NCBI GenBank assembly: GCA_002239065.1 | Contig: MPNO01000016.1 | Span: forward strand, 1 to 64,000 | DNA from: Defluviicoccus sp. bin129 | GTDB taxonomy: Bacteria > Pseudomonadota > Alphaproteobacteria > MPNO01 | Length of the DNA: 64,000 bases | Direction: 5' to 3' | Shown: positions 1 through 8,625 of the stretch, piece by piece | How positions within the stretch are numbered: the first letter of the stretch is position 1 | Layout: each line of letters opens with the position of its first letter | Notes under the pieces: generated by a model | The model's input: only the letters and a program-made list of their open reading frames with translations | The model's database searches: none | Told to the model about the DNA's origin: nothing | Translations under genes and position numbers: made by a program

Positions 1-124
1 ATCCGCACGTCCGGTTTGATGAGCGGGGACTGGAAACGCGGCCATGGGAGCCGGACTGAGGCCCGGCGCGAAAGCGCCGGACAAGCCACCGGACCCTAAC
101 GCTGGCGCGCCAGTCCTCGACTCT
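1..124 (+). mobile_element. 3' end of a group II intron (partial domain V plus domain VI-like region)
   Basis: The window opens in the 3' strand of what looks like group II intron domain V. Bases 1-18 read ATCCGCACGTCCGGTTTG, keeping the CGCACGTnCGGTT core with its AC bulge as in the Lactococcus LtrB intron. The 5' half of domain V and any reverse transcriptase gene lie to the left, outside the window. Downstream, GGACTGG (27-33) can pair with CCAGTCC (111-117) around an inner GGCGCGAAAGCGCC hairpin, consistent with an elongated domain VI. The exact intron 3' end is inferred, probably near the CTCTAC at about 120-125, just before the IS1380-type remnant. Assignment rests on motif recognition only. 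Confidence 0.55.
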
Positions 125-233
125 ACATCAGGGTGTGAGGGCGTGGTGGCGGACGTGGCGTAACTCGTTGACATCAGGTAGAAATTCGTTTCCCAGCGTC
201 TTTCCACCGAAGCAACGAAAGCGCCACGCCACC

Positions 234-1354
234 ATGACCGAAGATATGATTCTCCCGTTCGATCTTCCAGCCGTAAGCCGCAAGAAGGTGACCGCCGATT
301 TCGCGGGCGGTTCGATCTCGTCCGACGGCGGCCTGGTCCTGCTGCGCGCGGCGGAGCGCCGGCTCGGGCTGGCCGAGGCGCTGGCCGGCTGCATCCGGGA
401 GTGACGCGACCCGGAGCGGGTGGTCCACACACTGCCGGCGATCATGCTCGAAATCGACGACACCTGCGACGCGGTGCACGGGCATCAGCAGCTCTCGCTG
501 TTCAACGCCTTCTACGACACGCGGTGCTCCCTGCCGGCGCATGTCTACCATGTCGAGAGCGGCAAGCCGGTAGCGGTGCTCCTGCGCCCCGGCAAGACGC
601 CGTCGGGTTCCGAGGTCCGCACCCTGCTGAAGCACGCGGTGCGCCGCATCCGCCGACACTGGCCGCGCACCCGGCTGACCTTCCGCGGAGACAGCCACTA
701 CGGCCGAACCGAGGCCATGGCGTGGTGCGAGGAAAACGGCGTCGACTACATCTTCGGCCTGGCGGGCAATGCCGTTCTGCACCGCCTCGCCTACGATGTC
801 GCCGACGATCTCAAGGTGCGCCGCGCCGAGGCCGGCACGGAGCAGATGCGCGGCTTCGCCAGCTTCGATTACGCCGCCGGCTCGTGGGACCGCGAACGCC
901 GCATCGTCGCCCGGCTCGAGGCGACGCCGCGCGGCTTCGACGCGCGCTACATAGTCACTTCGCTCACCAGCGAGCCCCGCCATCTCTACGAAGGGATCTA
1001 CTGCGCCCGCGGCCAGGCCGAGACCCTCATCAAGCAGCACAAGGTCCAGCTCGCCTCCGACCGCACCTCCTGCCAGAGCCCGACCGCCAACCAGTTCCGG
1101 CTGATCCTCCACACCGCCGCCTACTGGCTGATGCTCGCGCTCCGCGATGCCCTGCCGCGCAGGATGCCGCTCCACTGGGCCGAGTTCGCAACCCTCCGCC
1201 ATAAACTGCTCAAGAACCTGCCCCGGACTCGATCCGGGGCGGCGCCCGCGTGGTCGAGAAGGCCGCGCGCGTCCGCATCCACTTCGCCTCGGCCTGCCCC
1301 GATGCCGCCCTGTTCCGCATGTTGGCGGGGCGGCTCGCCGCCTCGGGACCCTGA
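234..1354 (+). pseudogene. IS1380-family DDE transposase, disrupted
   Basis: Starting at MTEDMILPFDLPA, the product matches the IS1380 transposase pattern (SSDGGLVLLRAAERRLGLAE, then the family block HGHQQLSLFNA, then RGDSHYGR). Three lesions are visible. A TGA at 402-404 replaces a sense codon between CIRE and RDPERVVHTL. Right after VVHTL the reading jumps to the IMLEIDD block, so roughly 75-80 residues usual in this family are missing. After LRHKLLKN a palindromic insertion (see 1221-1239) shifts the frame; the true C-terminus (ARVVEKAARVRIHFASACPD ... ending LAASGP) is read in another frame to the TGA at 1352-1354. The C-terminal catalytic part is otherwise well preserved, so decay is probably recent. 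Confidence 0.85.
1221..1239. repeat. REP-like palindrome inserted in the transposase pseudogene
   Basis: CCCCGGACTCGATCCGGGG is a perfect palindrome of two 7-base arms around a 5-base centre. It sits where an intact IS1380 transposase would read directly from LLK into GARVVEK, and it causes the frameshift there. Similar CCCCGGA-TCCGGGG units are frequent dispersed repeats in alphaproteobacterial genomes; calling this one a member of such a family is inference. Confidence 0.55.
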
Positions 1355-1507
1355 CCGCCGGGGCGCCGTGCCCCAGGAACCCGAGCCCGTTGAACCCCCA
1401 ACCTGGACTTCCAAGACCTCAGATCCCGGCGCCCCAAAGGCGCCGTACAGAAAACCTTGGGCGCTCGAAATCAACCGATAAAATCGGCCTACGATGAATA
1501 GATCAGC

Positions 1508-1969
1508 CTAAGCACGAATCTCGATGGAGATCTGGCTTGGCTCCACGCCTAGGGATTGGGCCAGCCGGATCTTGGCCTCGTGTATGGTCAGATGTCGTTC
1601 GCTGCCTTCCTGGGGTTCCGAGGCTGCCTCGTCCTCCTCGGAAATGGGATCGGAGGCTTTCTCAAGCTCCTCGGCTTCGCCAGAGGCGACCTGGCCGAGG
1701 CTCACGCGGCTGTACGCCCAGCTGAAGCGCGATGACCAGCCCTTTCTTCCGACGATGAATTCGCCGCAGCCCGCTTCTTCAAGTTCGCGCGCCAGGCTGA
1801 TTGCCTCACCGCGCGTGATCTCAAGCTTCCGCATGAATCGCTCGACGGTGGTTTCGTCGGCGTCGCGTTCGAGAGAAGCAGTCCAGTCGAACAGGCGGGT
1901 CGCGTGGGGATTCTGTTGGTACAGAGCTCGGATAGCCGTTGCGACTTCGGGGTTAAGAATTGCATCCAT
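1508..1969 (-). CDS. Hypothetical protein, possible winged-helix N-terminus
   Basis: Not recognised. The product is 153 aa if it starts at the ATG giving MDAILNPEVATAIRALYQQN, preceded by a purine-rich AAAGGGAAAAAATC stretch; an upstream in-frame ATG would add 21 residues but has no ribosome-binding site. The first ~95 residues are helical with a basic, turn-rich end (GCGEFIVGRKGWSSRFSW) that resembles a wing after a recognition helix, so DNA binding is possible. Residues ~100-130 are acidic and low complexity. The C-terminus (LTIHEAKIRLAQSLGVEPSQISIEIRA) looks like a small separate module. It stands alone between IS debris and AT-richer DNA, which suggests accessory origin. There are no membrane segments. 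Confidence 0.55.
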   Translation of the reverse strand: MDAILNPEVATAIRALYQQNPHATRLFDWTASLERDADETTVERFMRKLEITRGEAISLARELEEAGCGEFIVGRKGWSSRFSWAYSRVSLGQVASGEAEELEKASDPISEEDEAASEPQEGSERHLTIHEAKIRLAQSLGVEPSQISIEIRA

Positions 1970-2181
1970 GATTTTTTCCCTTTTCTGCCTTATGAAGGCC
2001 AAATCACTTGTATAAAAGGATATATAAGGCATATTAAGCCCATTGGCAAGAGATAAAACCCTTTTAGTGAGATAAACGGAGTTTTGTATAGCCCAAATGA
2101 GCTAAATTTCGAAGAAGCCTGTGCCGATGCCGGTTTCCTGACATACTTGGTGCCCGCGCAGATCCCGGCACGACTGACGCC

Positions 2182-2487
2182 ATGAACGCCGACGTCAAGA
2201 ACCCGGTGATCGAGCCCCTGCGAGGCATCGCCCGCACCACGCTGACCCAGCTCGCTGCCGGCGACTGGATCCGACAGGCGCTCAACCTGGTCCGGCAACG
2301 GATCGTCGAAGGGATCGATGCTAAACAGGGATCATCGGCGGACCGGCGCGAACTCGCACTCGGGCACCCTCCACCCGAGATTCCAAATGATGATCTCCAG
2401 CGGGAACTGAGCTCGCGGATTACGACTTGTGCCTCCGGCACGCCGTTAACAGGCGCGACCAACTTTTGTGAAGATTCAGAGACTTAA
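2182..2487 (+). CDS. Short hypothetical protein or gene remnant
   Basis: A 101-codon frame beginning MNADVKNPVIEPLRGIARTT. The first ~60 codons prefer G or C at the third position, as genuine genes here do, and the product has plausible amphipathic helices. The second half (from about KQGSSADRRE) loses that bias and ends in a low-complexity tail, so the frame probably runs from a real gene fragment into unrelated DNA. No clear ribosome-binding site is seen and I do not recognise the family. It lies in the mobile-element-rich left edge and may be the remains of an integrated element. Confidence 0.25.
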   Translation: MNADVKNPVIEPLRGIARTTLTQLAAGDWIRQALNLVRQRIVEGIDAKQGSSADRRELALGHPPPEIPNDDLQRELSSRITTCASGTPLTGATNFCEDSET

Positions 2488-2572
2488 GACAGTTCAGACC
2501 GGGATTTCAATCAATTGTCGGTCTCGGCTGAAACCCGTCCCGTGTCAAGCGTTATTTTTCCTTTTCGGAATA

Positions 2573-2589
2573 GGTCAGCAATGCTGACC
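2573..2589. repeat. Inverted repeat next to parS
   Basis: GGTCAGC AAT GCTGACC is a perfect 7-base inverted repeat with a 3-base centre, ending two bases before the parS palindrome. It could be an operator, part of an extended partition site, or a weak terminator for the leftward TRAP permease gene; there is no T-run directly after it. Confidence 0.45.
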
Positions 2590-2591
2590 AT

Positions 2592-2607
2592 TGTTTCACG
2601 TGAAACA
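2592..2607. other. parS site (ParB/Spo0J binding, chromosome partition)
   Basis: TGTTTCACGTGAAACA is an exact 16-base match to the conserved bacterial chromosomal parS palindrome. ParB loads on such sites and spreads, forming the partition complex moved by ParA and loading SMC condensin. In most bacteria parS sites cluster near the replication origin, so the window is probably origin-proximal, although dnaA, parAB and gidAB are not present here. The site lies in the noncoding gap 42 bases beyond the TRAP permease stop codon. Confidence 0.9.
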
Positions 2608-2648
2608 TTGTCCCGAAACGGTACTATTTTCACGCCCGCCGGAGACGG

Positions 2649-4580
2649 CTACAGCGCGCGCGCCTTCAGCCGCATTGCCGCGTTTCGTCGCGCGGCGAAC
2701 GCGACGCCGCCGCCCGCCGCCGCAGCCAGCAGGGTCAGCGGGGATTCGGCGCCGAGCCAGATCGTCGACCCGCCGACCGCGATCGCCGCGGCGAAGTAGA
2801 ACAGGGCGAGGCCGATCCTGGCGAGCCCGCCGTCGCCCCAGGTGATCACCGCCTCGGCGATCAGGAAGCCTGCGGCGAGCGCGGTCAGGCTGACATAGAC
2901 CACCGCGACCCAGCTTCCCTCCATCACCAGCGCCGGGTTGAACGCCCACAGGAAGGGTAGCAGATAGGCGGCGGCGGCGAGCTGCATGCCGACCAGCCCG
3001 GTGCGCCACATGTCGGAGCCCGCGATCCCCGCCGCCACCATGCTGGCCACCGCGACCGGCGGGGTCAGCATGCTCAAGAGCCCGAAATAGAACAGGAACA
3101 GATGCGCCGCCATCGGCTTCAACCCGATCTCGACCAGGGCGGGCGCTATCACCGTGGCGAGGATGATGTAGACCGCCGCCGTCGGCATACCCATGCCGAG
3201 GACGATGGAGACCAGGGCGGTCACCACCAGCATCCAGAAGATCCCGGCGCTCTGGCCGAGCTCGGCGAGGATGATCGAGAGCTGGAAGGCGAGCCCGGTC
3301 GAGTTGAGCACCCCCATCACCACCCCCGCCCCGCCGGCGATCAGTATCAGCGGCAGCAGGTTCTCGCCCGAGCCGAAGATGAAATCGCTCCATTCCGCGC
3401 GGCTCGGCAGGCGCCGGCTCTTCAGGATGTAGAGGAGCAGCAGCGAGGCGGCGGCGTACATCGCCGAGAGCCCCGGATTGTAGCCGAGCCCGAACAGGAA
3501 ATAGAGCAGCACGCCCAGCGGCAGCAGGAACACCCAGCCCGACAGCAGAACCGAGAAGACCCGCGGCAGCTCCGATTTGGGCAGGCCGCTCAGGCCGAAC
3601 CGGGCGGCGATGGCATCGACCTGGAGGAACAGCACCAGGTAGTAGAGCGCCGCCGGGACCGCGGCCGCGATGACCACGTCGATATAGGCGACTTCGAGGA
3701 ACTCGGCGATGATGAAGGCGGTCGCGCCCATCACCGGCGGCGCGATCTGCCCGCCATTGGAGGCCACCGCCTCGATCCCGGCGGCGTAGCGCGGCTCGAA
3801 CCCGGTGCGCTTCATCATCGGGATGGTGACGATCCCGGTCGACATGATGTTGCCGACCGCCGAGCCCGAAATGGTGCCGAAGGCGCTGGAGGCGACGACG
3901 GCGACCTTGGCCGGCCCGCCCCGGCGGTGGCCCATCAGCCCCATCGCGAGGTCGGTGAAGAACCGCGTCGCGCCGGAGACCTCGAGCAGCTTGCCGAGGA
4001 TGATGAAGGCGAGCACGAGCTCGGTGACGACGCGCAGCACCAGCCCCGGAATGCCGTTGTTGTCGGCGTAGAGGTAGAGCACCGTCTTGGTCGGCGGGAA
4101 GACCTCGGCCTCCAGCGCGCCGGGCAGCGCGTCGCCGAAATAGGCGTAGGCGATCATCACCCAGACCAGGGTGGTGATCACCTTGCCGCAGGCCTTGCGG
4201 AGCGCCTCCATCATGACAAGGACGGCGACCACGCCCGGCACCCACTTGTCGAGAGTCCGATCCGCCATGCCGACGATCCAGTCCTCGAAGTTCCACGACA
4301 TCCAGAACCAGGCGGCGAAGGAGACGACGGCAAGTGCGATCTCGAGCGCCCCGGCCCGGGAGCCGTAGGGGTATTTGAGATAGGCCGCGGCGATCGACAG
4401 CCCGAGGACGACGCCGATCACCTGCTGGAAGGTGAAGGCGAAGCCGAAACGGTCGGCGACCGCGAAGATCCAGAGGATCCCGACGATCGGCACCGCGCCG
4501 AGGCAGGCGCGCAGCAGCAGCGTCGTCAGCTGCTGCATCGGGCCGCCGAACCCGCGCAGCGGGCCGCCGAAACCCCGCAT
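2649..4580 (-). CDS. TRAP transporter fused permease subunit (DctQ-DctM type, TAXI system)
   Basis: A 643-aa integral membrane protein of the fused TRAP permease family, in which the small (DctQ-like) and large (DctM-like) subunits are one chain. It uses an ion gradient to import a solute delivered by a periplasmic TAXI-type binding protein, encoded immediately upstream (gap of 26 bases). Many hydrophobic segments are visible, and the DctM core has family-typical stretches such as GTISGSAVGNIMSTG, NGGQIAPPVMGATAFI and LGMGMPTAAVYI. The start ATG at 4580 has a GAGG motif in front. The first 14 residues contain a near-perfect repeat (RGFGGP twice); the ATG at 4538 (MQQLTT) is an alternative start. 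The cargo is unknown; the neighbouring oxygenase suggests an aromatic or other organic acid. Confidence 0.9.
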   Translation of the reverse strand: MRGFGGPLRGFGGPMQQLTTLLLRACLGAVPIVGILWIFAVADRFGFAFTFQQVIGVVLGLSIAAAYLKYPYGSRAGALEIALAVVSFAAWFWMSWNFEDWIVGMADRTLDKWVPGVVAVLVMMEALRKACGKVITTLVWVMIAYAYFGDALPGALEAEVFPPTKTVLYLYADNNGIPGLVLRVVTELVLAFIILGKLLEVSGATRFFTDLAMGLMGHRRGGPAKVAVVASSAFGTISGSAVGNIMSTGIVTIPMMKRTGFEPRYAAGIEAVASNGGQIAPPVMGATAFIIAEFLEVAYIDVVIAAAVPAALYYLVLFLQVDAIAARFGLSGLPKSELPRVFSVLLSGWVFLLPLGVLLYFLFGLGYNPGLSAMYAAASLLLLYILKSRRLPSRAEWSDFIFGSGENLLPLILIAGGAGVVMGVLNSTGLAFQLSIILAELGQSAGIFWMLVVTALVSIVLGMGMPTAAVYIILATVIAPALVEIGLKPMAAHLFLFYFGLLSMLTPPVAVASMVAAGIAGSDMWRTGLVGMQLAAAAYLLPFLWAFNPALVMEGSWVAVVYVSLTALAAGFLIAEAVITWGDGGLARIGLALFYFAAAIAVGGSTIWLGAESPLTLLAAAAGGGVAFAARRNAAMRLKARAL

Positions 4581-4606
4581 CGCCCCGCCTCGGCCGCGGC
4601 GTCGGA

Positions 4607-5623
4607 CTACTTAACCATGCTCAGGACCTTGGCCTGGCCCGCATCGTGCGCGGCCGTCCACAGCCCCGCCTCCTTGTAGTACTTGATCGCGCCAGGGTGG
4701 TAGGGCATCGAGGTGCTGGCCGGGGCCAGCCCGTCCTGCGGCGTCCCCCGCAGCGGCCCGTAGTCCTTCTGCAGCTTCTTCCAGTTGCTGTGCAGCGACT
4801 TGGCGAGCCGGTACGCGTCCTCATCGCCCACCTTCGCCGCCGAGGCGTTGAGATAGGAATCGAACGCCCCGATGGTGATCGGCTCGCGCACGAAGGGGAA
4901 ACGCTTGCTCGGCTTGACCTTCATCGAATAGAGCCCGGCGATGCCCTTGGCGAGCATCTCGTCGTTCGCCAGCTTGCCGAGGCCGAGGACGCGGAGCCCG
5001 CCCGGCACCGTCGCATGGGTCTTGCGCATCGCCGGCATGGCGAGCGCGACCGTCGTCGCCGCGGCGCGGTTCTCGACGACCATGTTGATGCCGTTGACCA
5101 CCCCGCCCGAATCGATGGGAATGATGTCCTTTTCGGTCAGCCCCGCGGTCGCCAGCACCGTCCGGTTGGTCTGCTCCAGCGAGACATTGGTCTTGACCTT
5201 GACGGTGACCTTCTTGCCGCGCAGGTCTTCGAGCGTCTTGATGCCGGAACTTTCCTTGACCATGTAGGCGTAGGGAAGAATCCACACGCGGGCCAGCATG
5301 CGCACGTTGCGGATCTTGTTCTTGAAGCGGCCCTTGCCGGCGACCGCCAGACCCGAATCCAGGCTCGAATTGAGCCCCATCACGATCTCGCCCTTGTCCA
5401 TCAGCGGCAGATAGACCGACGAGCCGGCATGCGGCTGGGCGGTCGAGCGGATCTTGAGGTCCTGCTGGAAGTGCTTGGCGAAGCCGCCCGCGAGCAGGAA
5501 GTAGGTCGATCCCGCGGGGTTGCTGCCGATGGTGATCCGCTTGAGCTGGGCCTCGGCGGTCGCCGCCGCGCCCCCTACCACGCCCGCCGCGAGCACGGCG
5601 GCGATGAGTCTGCGTGCTGTCAT
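4607..5623 (-). CDS. TAXI family TRAP transporter solute-binding protein
   Basis: A 338-aa periplasmic binding protein. An N-terminal Sec signal peptide (MTARRLIAAVLAAGVVGGAA, then ATAEA) precedes LKRITIGSNPAGSTYFLLAG, the usual opening of the TAXI family (TRAP-associated extracytoplasmic immunogenic). The family's two-lobed body follows, with GLNSSLDSGLAV, LRGKKVTVKVK and MPYHPGAIKYYKEAGLW near the end. It captures a small organic solute and passes it to the fused permease encoded next in the same leftward operon. Length is typical. The bound ligand cannot be read from the sequence. Confidence 0.9.
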   Translation of the reverse strand: MTARRLIAAVLAAGVVGGAAATAEAQLKRITIGSNPAGSTYFLLAGGFAKHFQQDLKIRSTAQPHAGSSVYLPLMDKGEIVMGLNSSLDSGLAVAGKGRFKNKIRNVRMLARVWILPYAYMVKESSGIKTLEDLRGKKVTVKVKTNVSLEQTNRTVLATAGLTEKDIIPIDSGGVVNGINMVVENRAAATTVALAMPAMRKTHATVPGGLRVLGLGKLANDEMLAKGIAGLYSMKVKPSKRFPFVREPITIGAFDSYLNASAAKVGDEDAYRLAKSLHSNWKKLQKDYGPLRGTPQDGLAPASTSMPYHPGAIKYYKEAGLWTAAHDAGQAKVLSMVK

Positions 5624-5704
5624 CGAGTATCTCCCTCTTCCCGGCCCGATGCGGGCGGGTCTTCGTTCATCGAGGCGGAAAGCCTAGCAGAGTCCGGCGG
5701 CGGC

Positions 5705-6853
5705 TCAAATCGGCTTGCCTTCGCTCTCCGCCCAGGCGTCCTGCATGAAGATGTTGGACGGGCGGGTCTCGTCGAGCACCTTGGCGGCCGCCTCGGCGCC
5801 GGCGATGGGGAGGCCATCCGCATCCAGCGCGCCGATCTGGCTGAGCGCCGAGGCCTGGTCCCAGTAGATGTGCTCGTGGCACACGCGGTCGCCGCGGAAC
5901 CTGACCAGCAGCAGCGTCGGGATCTCCACCATTTTTCCGGTCGGCGCGATGCAGGGGAAGTAGCGGTCGAGCACCCGGTCGTGGCGGAAGCGGACCACGG
6001 TCTCCAGCACGATGCGGTCGGGGCCCACGGTCTCCGAGACCGGGGTGCTGGAGCGTTCGCGCGAGTTCTGGTCCACGAAATGGTACTTGTAGAACCGCTT
6101 CAGCATGTCGTGGCCGACCCCGCCCGCGAGCGTGGGCACGTGGTTGACATAGGGCTCGTCGATCATCGTCGCCATGGTGGCGTCGACGTCGCGGGTCTCG
6201 AACTCGTGCCGGACATGCGCCTCGAACAGCGCGACGAGGTCGTAATGCGGGCCGAGCGCGCGGCGCAGCAGCCCGAGCGCCCGGCTGTGGGCGAGGCTGT
6301 CGGAGCGCTTGTCGAAACCCGCCCGGTGCGGGATCGCGAAACCGGGCGCGGCCGAGGGGTAGCGGAGGACGGCGCTGCCGTCGCTCCGGTCGAGGCCGCG
6401 CTCGATGCGCCCCGCCGCTTGCTCGGCCTCCGCGCTGTCCCGGGTGCCGAAGACGAGCAGCGCGGGGCACGCGGCGCCGATCTCCGAGGCCTCGGCGAGC
6501 CCGACCGGATCGAACGCGACCGCCGCGTCGAAGGCGGACGCCGCCCGGCAGGCGAGCGCCCCGCCCGCGCCGTGGCCGAGCACCCCGATCCCGCCCGCCT
6601 GCTCGGGCATCGCGCGCAGCGCATCCGCCGCCGCGCGGACCTCGCCCGCCTCCGACAGGCCGGCGACGGCCAGCACCGCGTAGCCCTCCTCGCCGAACAG
6701 CCCGGCGCGCGCCCTGATCCCGGCATCCAGCCCCGCCTCGTCGGCGAGCAGCAGCAGGCCCGGCCCCGTGCCGCTGCGGTGGACCGCGAAATGGGCCTCC
6801 AGCGTCTTGCCGGCGACGGCGATGCTGCGGCTCCTGCCGATTTCCTTCTCCAT
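5705..6853 (-). CDS. Dienelactone-hydrolase-like domain fused to SnoaL-like domain (probable pseudo-enzyme N-terminus)
   Basis: A 382-aa two-domain protein, started at the ATG giving MEKEIGRSRSIAVAG. Residues ~1-210 follow the alpha/beta-hydrolase fold of dienelactone hydrolase. The nucleophile elbow, normally G-x-C-x-G-G, reads GHGAGG (93-98), so the Cys position is Gly95. The catalytic His of the usual GHGF motif is replaced (AAPGF, Pro170), while an Asp (139) and Glu39 remain. Residues ~225-382 resemble SnoaL/NTF2-like proteins (small cone-shaped cyclase, isomerase or hydrolase folds). It is probably the first gene of the leftward operon with the TAXI-TRAP genes, and is divergent from the ring-hydroxylating oxygenase across only 69 bases. 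The function is probably carried by the SnoaL half; substrate unknown. Confidence 0.75.
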   Translation of the reverse strand: MEKEIGRSRSIAVAGKTLEAHFAVHRSGTGPGLLLLADEAGLDAGIRARAGLFGEEGYAVLAVAGLSEAGEVRAAADALRAMPEQAGGIGVLGHGAGGALACRAASAFDAAVAFDPVGLAEASEIGAACPALLVFGTRDSAEAEQAAGRIERGLDRSDGSAVLRYPSAAPGFAIPHRAGFDKRSDSLAHSRALGLLRRALGPHYDLVALFEAHVRHEFETRDVDATMATMIDEPYVNHVPTLAGGVGHDMLKRFYKYHFVDQNSRERSSTPVSETVGPDRIVLETVVRFRHDRVLDRYFPCIAPTGKMVEIPTLLLVRFRGDRVCHEHIYWDQASALSQIGALDADGLPIAGAEAAAKVLDETRPSNIFMQDAWAESEGKPI

Positions 6854-8149: not shown

Positions 8150-8625
8150 CCGGGGCGGCGGACGCGCTGGCCGCGCGCATCGGGCGGCTCAACACGGCCT
8201 ATGCGCATGCCATCGACGACGACCGGCTGGAGGACTGGCCCGGCTTCTTCGCCGATGACGGGCTCTACCGCATCGTCACAAGGGAGAACCACGAGGCCGC
8301 GCTGCCGCTCGCCATCGTCCATTGCCAGGGCGCGGCGATGATGCGCGACCGGGTGCGGGCGATGCGGACCGCCAACATCTTCGAGCCGCACAGCTACTGC
8401 CACACGCTGGGCGCGGCGGAGATCGTCGGGAGCGAGGACGGGGTCCACGCCGCGCGGACCAACTTCATCGTCGTCCGCACCATGCAGTCCGGCGCCATGT
8501 CGGTGTTCGCCTGCGGCCGCTATCTCGACCGCATCGTCGAGCGGGACGGCGCCCTCGAACTCTCCGAGCGCGTCGCGGTCTGCGACTCGCGCACCGTCGA
8601 CACCCTGCTCGTGGTGCCGCTGTAG
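8146..8625 (+). CDS. Ring-hydroxylating oxygenase, small (beta) subunit
   Basis: A 159-aa protein of the aromatic-ring-hydroxylating dioxygenase beta-subunit family (NTF2-like fold), which has a structural role in the alpha3beta3 enzyme. Recognisable features are the N-terminal helix with NTAYAHAIDDDRLEDWPGFF, the YRIVTRENHEAALPLAIVHCQG stretch with the family's MMRDRVRAMRTANIFEPHSY block, and the late R..VCDSRTVDTLLVVPL end. The GTG start overlaps the alpha-subunit stop in GTGA, implying translational coupling and equal subunit production. The oxygenase is therefore hetero-oligomeric. Confidence 0.88.
   Translation: MTGAADALAARIGRLNTAYAHAIDDDRLEDWPGFFADDGLYRIVTRENHEAALPLAIVHCQGAAMMRDRVRAMRTANIFEPHSYCHTLGAAEIVGSEDGVHAARTNFIVVRTMQSGAMSVFACGRYLDRIVERDGALELSERVAVCDSRTVDTLLVVPL

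Follow-up and report, generated by a model that had tools for sequence, protein, structure and literature searches.

The described systems closest to the locus treated here are the parS sites of chromosomal ParABS systems and the REPIN elements, which are mobilized by RAYT enzymes. Why parS numbers vary between genomes and what drives the clustering of the sites are presented as open questions in a review (PMC7333895). According to this review, two species tolerate new parS sites only in a region of ∼600 kb surrounding the native locus or the origin, and a self-reinforcing expansion of parS limited to ∼600 kb is suggested. For the ParB/Noc family, PMC7383237 gives a specificity rule in which the Noc pattern consists of Q, K, K, and R, and the parS type shows R173 and G201 with no lysine at position 179 or 184. 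A word search of the main text of the Defluviicoccus genome paper (PMC9041414) returns no mention of parS. No paper describing parS carried by a dispersed repeat was found in a literature search made mostly beyond subscription journals, with the survey by Livny et al. from 2007 outside its scope.

The window analyzed comprises 64,000 nucleotides, positions 1 to 64000 of contig C95 of Defluviicoccus sp. bin129 (genome G000), a draft of 4.83 Mb in 122 contigs that is 89% complete. At positions 2592 to 2607, the palindrome TGTTTCACGTGAAACA, given without strand, matches parS at 16 of 16 positions, as the original prediction had stated, and is the sole match in the window even with up to three mismatches allowed; 6 of 100 shuffles yield any match at this tolerance. 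With the window composition of 69.8% GC, 7e-7 exact matches are expected by chance per 64 kb and 5e-5 per 4.83-Mb genome, in agreement with the claim that such a match should not arise by chance. By its letters, the site belongs to the chromosomal parS type. An identity as a Noc-binding site (NBS), compared in the form that we take to be the NBS sequence, is ruled out by the parS sequence and by a ParB without Noc residues.

To the left of the site, a DDE_Tnp_1_4 transposase recognized by its Pfam profile extends over positions 135 to 1481 of the plus strand and is called broken because the match is split into two pieces, with profile positions 2 to 45 at 135 to 401 and 139 to 397 at 420 to 1478. 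Two open reading frames (ORFs) without a Pfam match separate the transposase from parS. A 174-amino-acid ORF without a Pfam match is found on the minus strand at 1508 to 2032, in the stretch that separates the transposase remnants from the repeat with parS. On the right, the gene of a DctM-type permease of a TRAP transporter (2649 to 4580; minus strand) has its 3′ end 42 bp from parS; the gene of an NMT1-like binding protein lies on this side as well. These neighbors correspond to the predicted setting beside decayed mobile elements and catabolic genes. The description as a centromere-like site in an unusual home overlooks that the site does not stand alone, being 1 of 23 and lying inside a dispersed compound repeat. 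This embedding may explain the location beside mobile DNA.

The whole-genome search for TGTTTCACGTGAAACA proposed with the original prediction gives 23 perfect sites on 16 contigs of G000, besides two sites at one mismatch and a single site at two mismatches. Four congeners, MAGs labeled Defluviicoccus sp., contain 35, 52, 22, and 35 perfect sites; several site coordinates in G001, G002, and G004 coincide with those of the JAJEHI, JAPPIT, and JAJDVM records. Going by this label, the class is Alphaproteobacteria. We presume that the Defluviicoccus bins come from sponges. The only relative from the same family (G005; 79% complete) has 2 perfect sites, and 21 genomes of the same order have 0 to 4 each. 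A class sample of 289 genomes including G000, the others being at least 90% complete, shows a median of 2 among the 288 other genomes, of which 3 have at least 10 (13, 18, and 78). The class genome G207 (2.8 Mb) carries 18 perfect sites on its contig C1, eight within 1.812 to 1.817 Mb and ten scattered, a layout unlike the usual origin-only pattern. G221 (1.8 Mb) holds 78, and the places listed for it include six sites in a row with a spacing of 37 bp (C5:85888-86088).

Simple gene calls place 19 of the 23 sites of G000 in intergenic regions. The other 4 are no more than 100 bp away from an edge of a called ORF, and in one case (on C1) this ORF is long and poorly coding, with the site inside it. 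The site at C53:8617, counted among the 19, in fact falls within the start of an ORF missed by the caller, which we take to be rsmG-like. Measured against a uniform spread, the sites are locally clumped in the two genomes for which a complete site list was used, with 6 pairs less than 7 kb apart versus 0.61 expected in G000 and 8 versus 0.71 in G004.

The genes parA and parB are located on C53, where their starts lie at distances of ∼0.6 kb (parA) and 1.5 kb (parB) from the parS site at 8617. ParB has 294 residues and the domains ParB_N, HTH_ParB, and ParB_C, and its best match among solved structures is the ParB chain 6t1f, which we take to be the Caulobacter protein. The letters of this chain fit the positions used in PMC7383237 at a constant offset of 10. 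Through the alignment, the residues of the ParB of G000 at positions 173, 179, 184, and 201 are R, A, N, and G, respectively; Q162, G170, S172, N178, and R204 are kept, and K171 is replaced by R. As these positions do not show the Noc pattern, this protein should read parS, and by these residues it is classed as a ParB of the parS type. The reading as a chromosomal parS is thus strengthened by a parA-parB pair in the same genome. A small ParB-like ORF is also present on C104, a contig without a perfect parS.

The parS of the window forms part of a compound repeat with two further modules. The second palindrome, P2 (GGTCAGCAATGCTGACC; 2573 to 2589, plus strand), has its arms at 2573 to 2580 and 2582 to 2589 and lies 2 bp from parS. 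The third conserved module, P3 (TTGTCCCGAAACGGTACTATTT; 2608 to 2629, plus strand), abuts parS on the other side. The repeat at 2530 to 2629 (plus strand) is 95% identical to a copy on C9 over 100 bp, and positions 2537 to 2631 are 94% identical to a copy on C96 over 95 bp. Its longest extent, 2485 to 2642 (plus strand), is pieced together from three partial matches of 80 to 84% in the congener G003. The general plan comprises parS, 2 bp, and P2 with the conserved letters GGTCARCANNGYTGACC, to which a further parS at a period of 37 bp is added in some elements and P3 in some copies. With P2 scored as present when at least 10 of these 13 letters agree, 16 of the 23 sites of G000 carry P2 at a distance of 2 bp on one side, and 7 are without it. 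The 16 sites correspond to 14 elements, 2 of which have a perfect parS on both sides at the 37-bp period. Among the congener elements read, 28 of 36 are such pairs, a share biased upwards because these loci were mostly fetched by the pair pattern.

The modules are closely linked. All eight exact copies of P2 in G000 adjoin a perfect parS. In the 1.07 Mb read, partly chosen around parS, 13 of the 14 places with zero or one mismatch adjoin parS, 12 of them a perfect one; the one-mismatch places contribute 5 of 6, and among two-mismatch places, the proportion is 2 of 7. The two-mismatch class is mostly background, since 1.6 Mb of the complete relative G011 gives 0, 1, and 15 matches at 0, 1, and 2 mismatches, where a single place may be counted twice, once per strand. 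P3 occurs in six copies within three mismatches, five of them exact, and all six abut parS (five perfect and one with one mismatch). Blocks of 38 bp consisting of parS and P3 are found in exact form at five places in G000. One parS-P2 unit adjoins parAB on C53, and another is located ∼2 kb from dnaA on C76.

Searches outside G000 indicate that the compound repeat is genus specific within the samples covered. P2 together with parS, at up to two mismatches, is detected in 2 of 385 class genomes, a sample that contained no congener: in G000 itself and as a single two-mismatch match in G052 (1 of the 384 non-congeners). All four congeners have the combination, with 37, 47, 18, and 30 rows for G001, G002, G003, and G004, and none of four other relatives searched has it (0/4). 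Of 118 loci fetched with parS pairs spaced by 37 bp, 21 from Defluviicoccus bins and one on a contig binned as Vicinamibacteria contain P2, and the remaining 96, from many phyla, contain none. The latter contig (L038; JAJEEA010000103.1), 3 kb long, carries parS-P2-parS and is probably misbinned. The spacing of 37 bp alone is rejected as a signature, as such pairs occur in many phyla among the matches listed. Pairs exactly 37 bp apart with unrelated spacers are present in Clostridia, Streptomyces, Anaerolineae, and others among these matches.

Within the repeat, parS is better conserved than the adjoining P2. In 132 rows with mismatches allowed anywhere, a hand count gives 8 mismatches in 2,112 positions of parS compared to 108 in 1,584 positions of P2; the rows overlap and are not independent, both faces of one P2 being counted. 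In G000, the best neighboring parS has 1 mismatch in 208 positions compared to 10 in 182 for P2 (Fisher P = 0.004), with unlike ascertainment: the former value comes from P2 sites found regardless of parS and the latter from P2 at sites found via parS. Within the repeat, parS is thus the better preserved part, and ParB binding is probably under selection.

The position relative to the origin is derived from synteny with G011 (4.149 Mb), which serves as the origin reference. Its GC skew switches at ∼2.78 Mb, its two parS sites are found at 2.7655 and 2.7675 Mb, and its dnaA gene has the position 2.8837 Mb. Positions 14 to 64 kb of the window are collinear with 2813 to 2861 kb of G011 over 29 genes. 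On the other side, the ortholog of the permease beside parS is located at C85:21575-24540 in G002, and genes at 0.1 to 6.9 kb of the same contig match 2782 to 2786 kb of G011; this contig is taken as JAPPIT010000079, given that three parS coordinates coincide. Both sides place the window site ∼20 to 30 kb from the skew switch, which supports the earlier supposition that it is probably close to the replication origin. The GC skew of the window itself, −0.029 to +0.033, is weak and changes sign and therefore speaks neither for nor against this placement.

For the parS set as a whole, origin clustering is not proven with the draft of 122 contigs. The comparison covers 0.8 Mb around the origin and 0.8 Mb around the terminus of G011, together ∼40% of that genome, and assigns 7 of the 16 parS contigs to blocks in the 0.8 Mb around the origin, 2.42 to 3.22 Mb (C1, C9, C14, C53, C70, C76, and C95), 2 to the terminus only (C13 and C51), and 7 to neither. 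From 25 further contigs, of which shorter stretches were read, come three blocks of the origin part and one of the terminus part, a ratio much like that of the parS contigs, and enrichment at the origin is therefore unproven. At the gene level, enrichment is likewise absent, with 16 origin and 20 terminus matches in the parS stretches versus 21 and 21 in the controls outside C95. Among 34 loci compared from the congeners, including three parB loci without parS, those with at least two neighboring anchors lie on the origin side in L013, L051, L059, L083, and L091 and on the terminus side in L078 and L128; L078 matches genes beside dnaA on C76. This contig (18478 to 51000) shows dnaA followed by a block of 15 genes matching 751 to 779 kb of G011, a region distant from the origin there, so that the two families differ by a large rearrangement. 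Positions near the terminus of G011 are therefore not transferable to the genus.

Copies of the element vary between species, as seen from the differing states of single loci. At the window locus, all that G003 retains next to the permease is P3 and the last six bases of parS, preceded by different DNA, and G001, G002, and G004 have no element. RHO2 (L013) has a parS pair in an interval that lacks one in the window. The alignment of L013 with 43.9 to 45 kb of the window includes ∼0.5 kb of extra unrelated DNA, which rules out L013 as a clean insert defining the boundaries. No clean insertion with target duplication is seen among the loci compared. The pair form is a near-perfect inverted repeat of 53 bp, with 44 to 50 of the 53 positions self-complementary in six examples. 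Folding against shuffles gives z values of −8.4 and −8.9 for the pair L111 and of −3.5 and −2.4 for the single-parS copy of the window.

The site is best explained, with a probability of roughly two in three, as a functional parS of the origin region and as one copy of a genus-specific, hairpin-forming repeat that multiplied parS. ParB would load at the window parS, and loading near the origin would contribute to segregation and to the loading of SMC, as in ParABS systems. Judging from the relatives, the ancestral state may have been two parS sites flanking a gene that we take to be mnmG, followed by an increase to 22 to 52 per genome. The repeat would have been duplicated or transposed to give the dispersed copies, and selection for ParB loading would keep parS intact and retain copies mainly in the origin region. 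P2 could be bound by another factor besides ParB or belong to the spreading mechanism of the repeat. A more far-reaching proposal, offered tentatively and open to considerable doubt, regards the centromere as the core of a REPIN-like mini mobile element with two parS around P2 that multiplies within the genome, where ParB and the requirement for origin-proximal loading decide which copies survive; it would constitute a natural route of centromere expansion, perhaps with a genus-specific partner protein of P2.

Three other explanations are weighed against this reading. A REP- or REPIN-like family that merely contains the parS 16-mer could act via RNA or supercoiling, as a hairpin or terminator, with incidental ParB binding. 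The 53-bp inverted pair form with the strong fold of L111, the intergenic location of 19 of the 23 sites, and P2 as the lone terminator-like match all suit such a family, which is nevertheless considered unlikely: parS is preserved, whereas the stem of P2 shows variation, its pair 3-15 being unpaired in 11 of 36 congener elements. As this variation often breaks the stem, it is more in keeping with a site bound by protein than with a stem formed in RNA. Furthermore, no Rfam family is found at the site in a search of window positions 1 to 6000 at an E value of up to 1, with one weak hit elsewhere. A function as a transcription terminator is rejected, with a scan no better than shuffles (1 found, P2 itself, versus 1.1 expected) and mixed orientations of the genes flanking the parS sites.

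Quite improbable, too, is an origin region with many parS sites of the ordinary kind known from Streptomyces and Listeria, where sites are gained singly by point mutation and kept for segregation and where the similarity of the flanks is a minor matter. Up to 20 to 23 origin-proximal parS sites are given for Streptomyces coelicolor and Listeria innocua in PMC7333895, and the 7 of 23 sites without P2 would fit an origin by point mutation. The copies of 100 and 95 bp at 94 to 95% identity and the exact P3 blocks, however, show that a larger unit was copied, and the eight of eight exact P2 copies beside parS argue in the same direction. Chance, or a parS left as mobile cargo by an integrated plasmid or phage, is given hardly any weight. 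The adjoining broken transposase would be in keeping with cargo, but the same parS-P2 unit stands beside parAB and near dnaA, and the expectation of 7e-7 speaks against chance. A plasmid origin is rejected, with window positions 1481 to 2700 resembling no record of the plasmid collection.

If the reading as a multiplied origin-region parS is correct, the genus offers an approach to the variation in parS numbers. Five species of one genus hold 22 to 52 parS sites compared to few in the relatives, and the likely vehicle, the compound repeat, is visible; the question thus becomes testable by comparing the gain and loss of copies. With P2 only 2 bp away from parS, ParB may have a partner protein that binds there and could be isolated directly.

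Compared with described systems, the sites of the NBS type, likewise 16 bp long and read by members of the ParB/Noc family, form a sister class, from which the locus is set apart by its parS sequence and by a ParB without Noc residues. The repeat resembles REPIN and REP-BIME elements (PMC3116915; PMC2817692) in its short, mostly intergenic palindromes, inverted pairs, capacity for hairpins, and tens of copies, with the REPIN-like pair form present in the congeners and in 2 of the 14 elements of G000, the window copy having one parS. It differs from these elements in that its core is a ParB site and in its lower copy number. No HUH motif of the kind that we take to be RAYT-like is found in the 1.07 of 4.83 Mb read (22% of the genome). 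With the parS sites of chromosomal ParABS systems, the locus shares the identical 16-mer, parS-type contact residues in ParB, an origin-side copy, and a pair flanking mnmG beside parA-parB. Unlike the usual parS of these systems, it reaches 22 to 52 copies in the genus, and 16 of the 23 sites in G000 are joined to a fixed palindrome 2 bp away. The site is notable for its vehicle: the repeat, specific to the genus, seems to have multiplied a centromere site.
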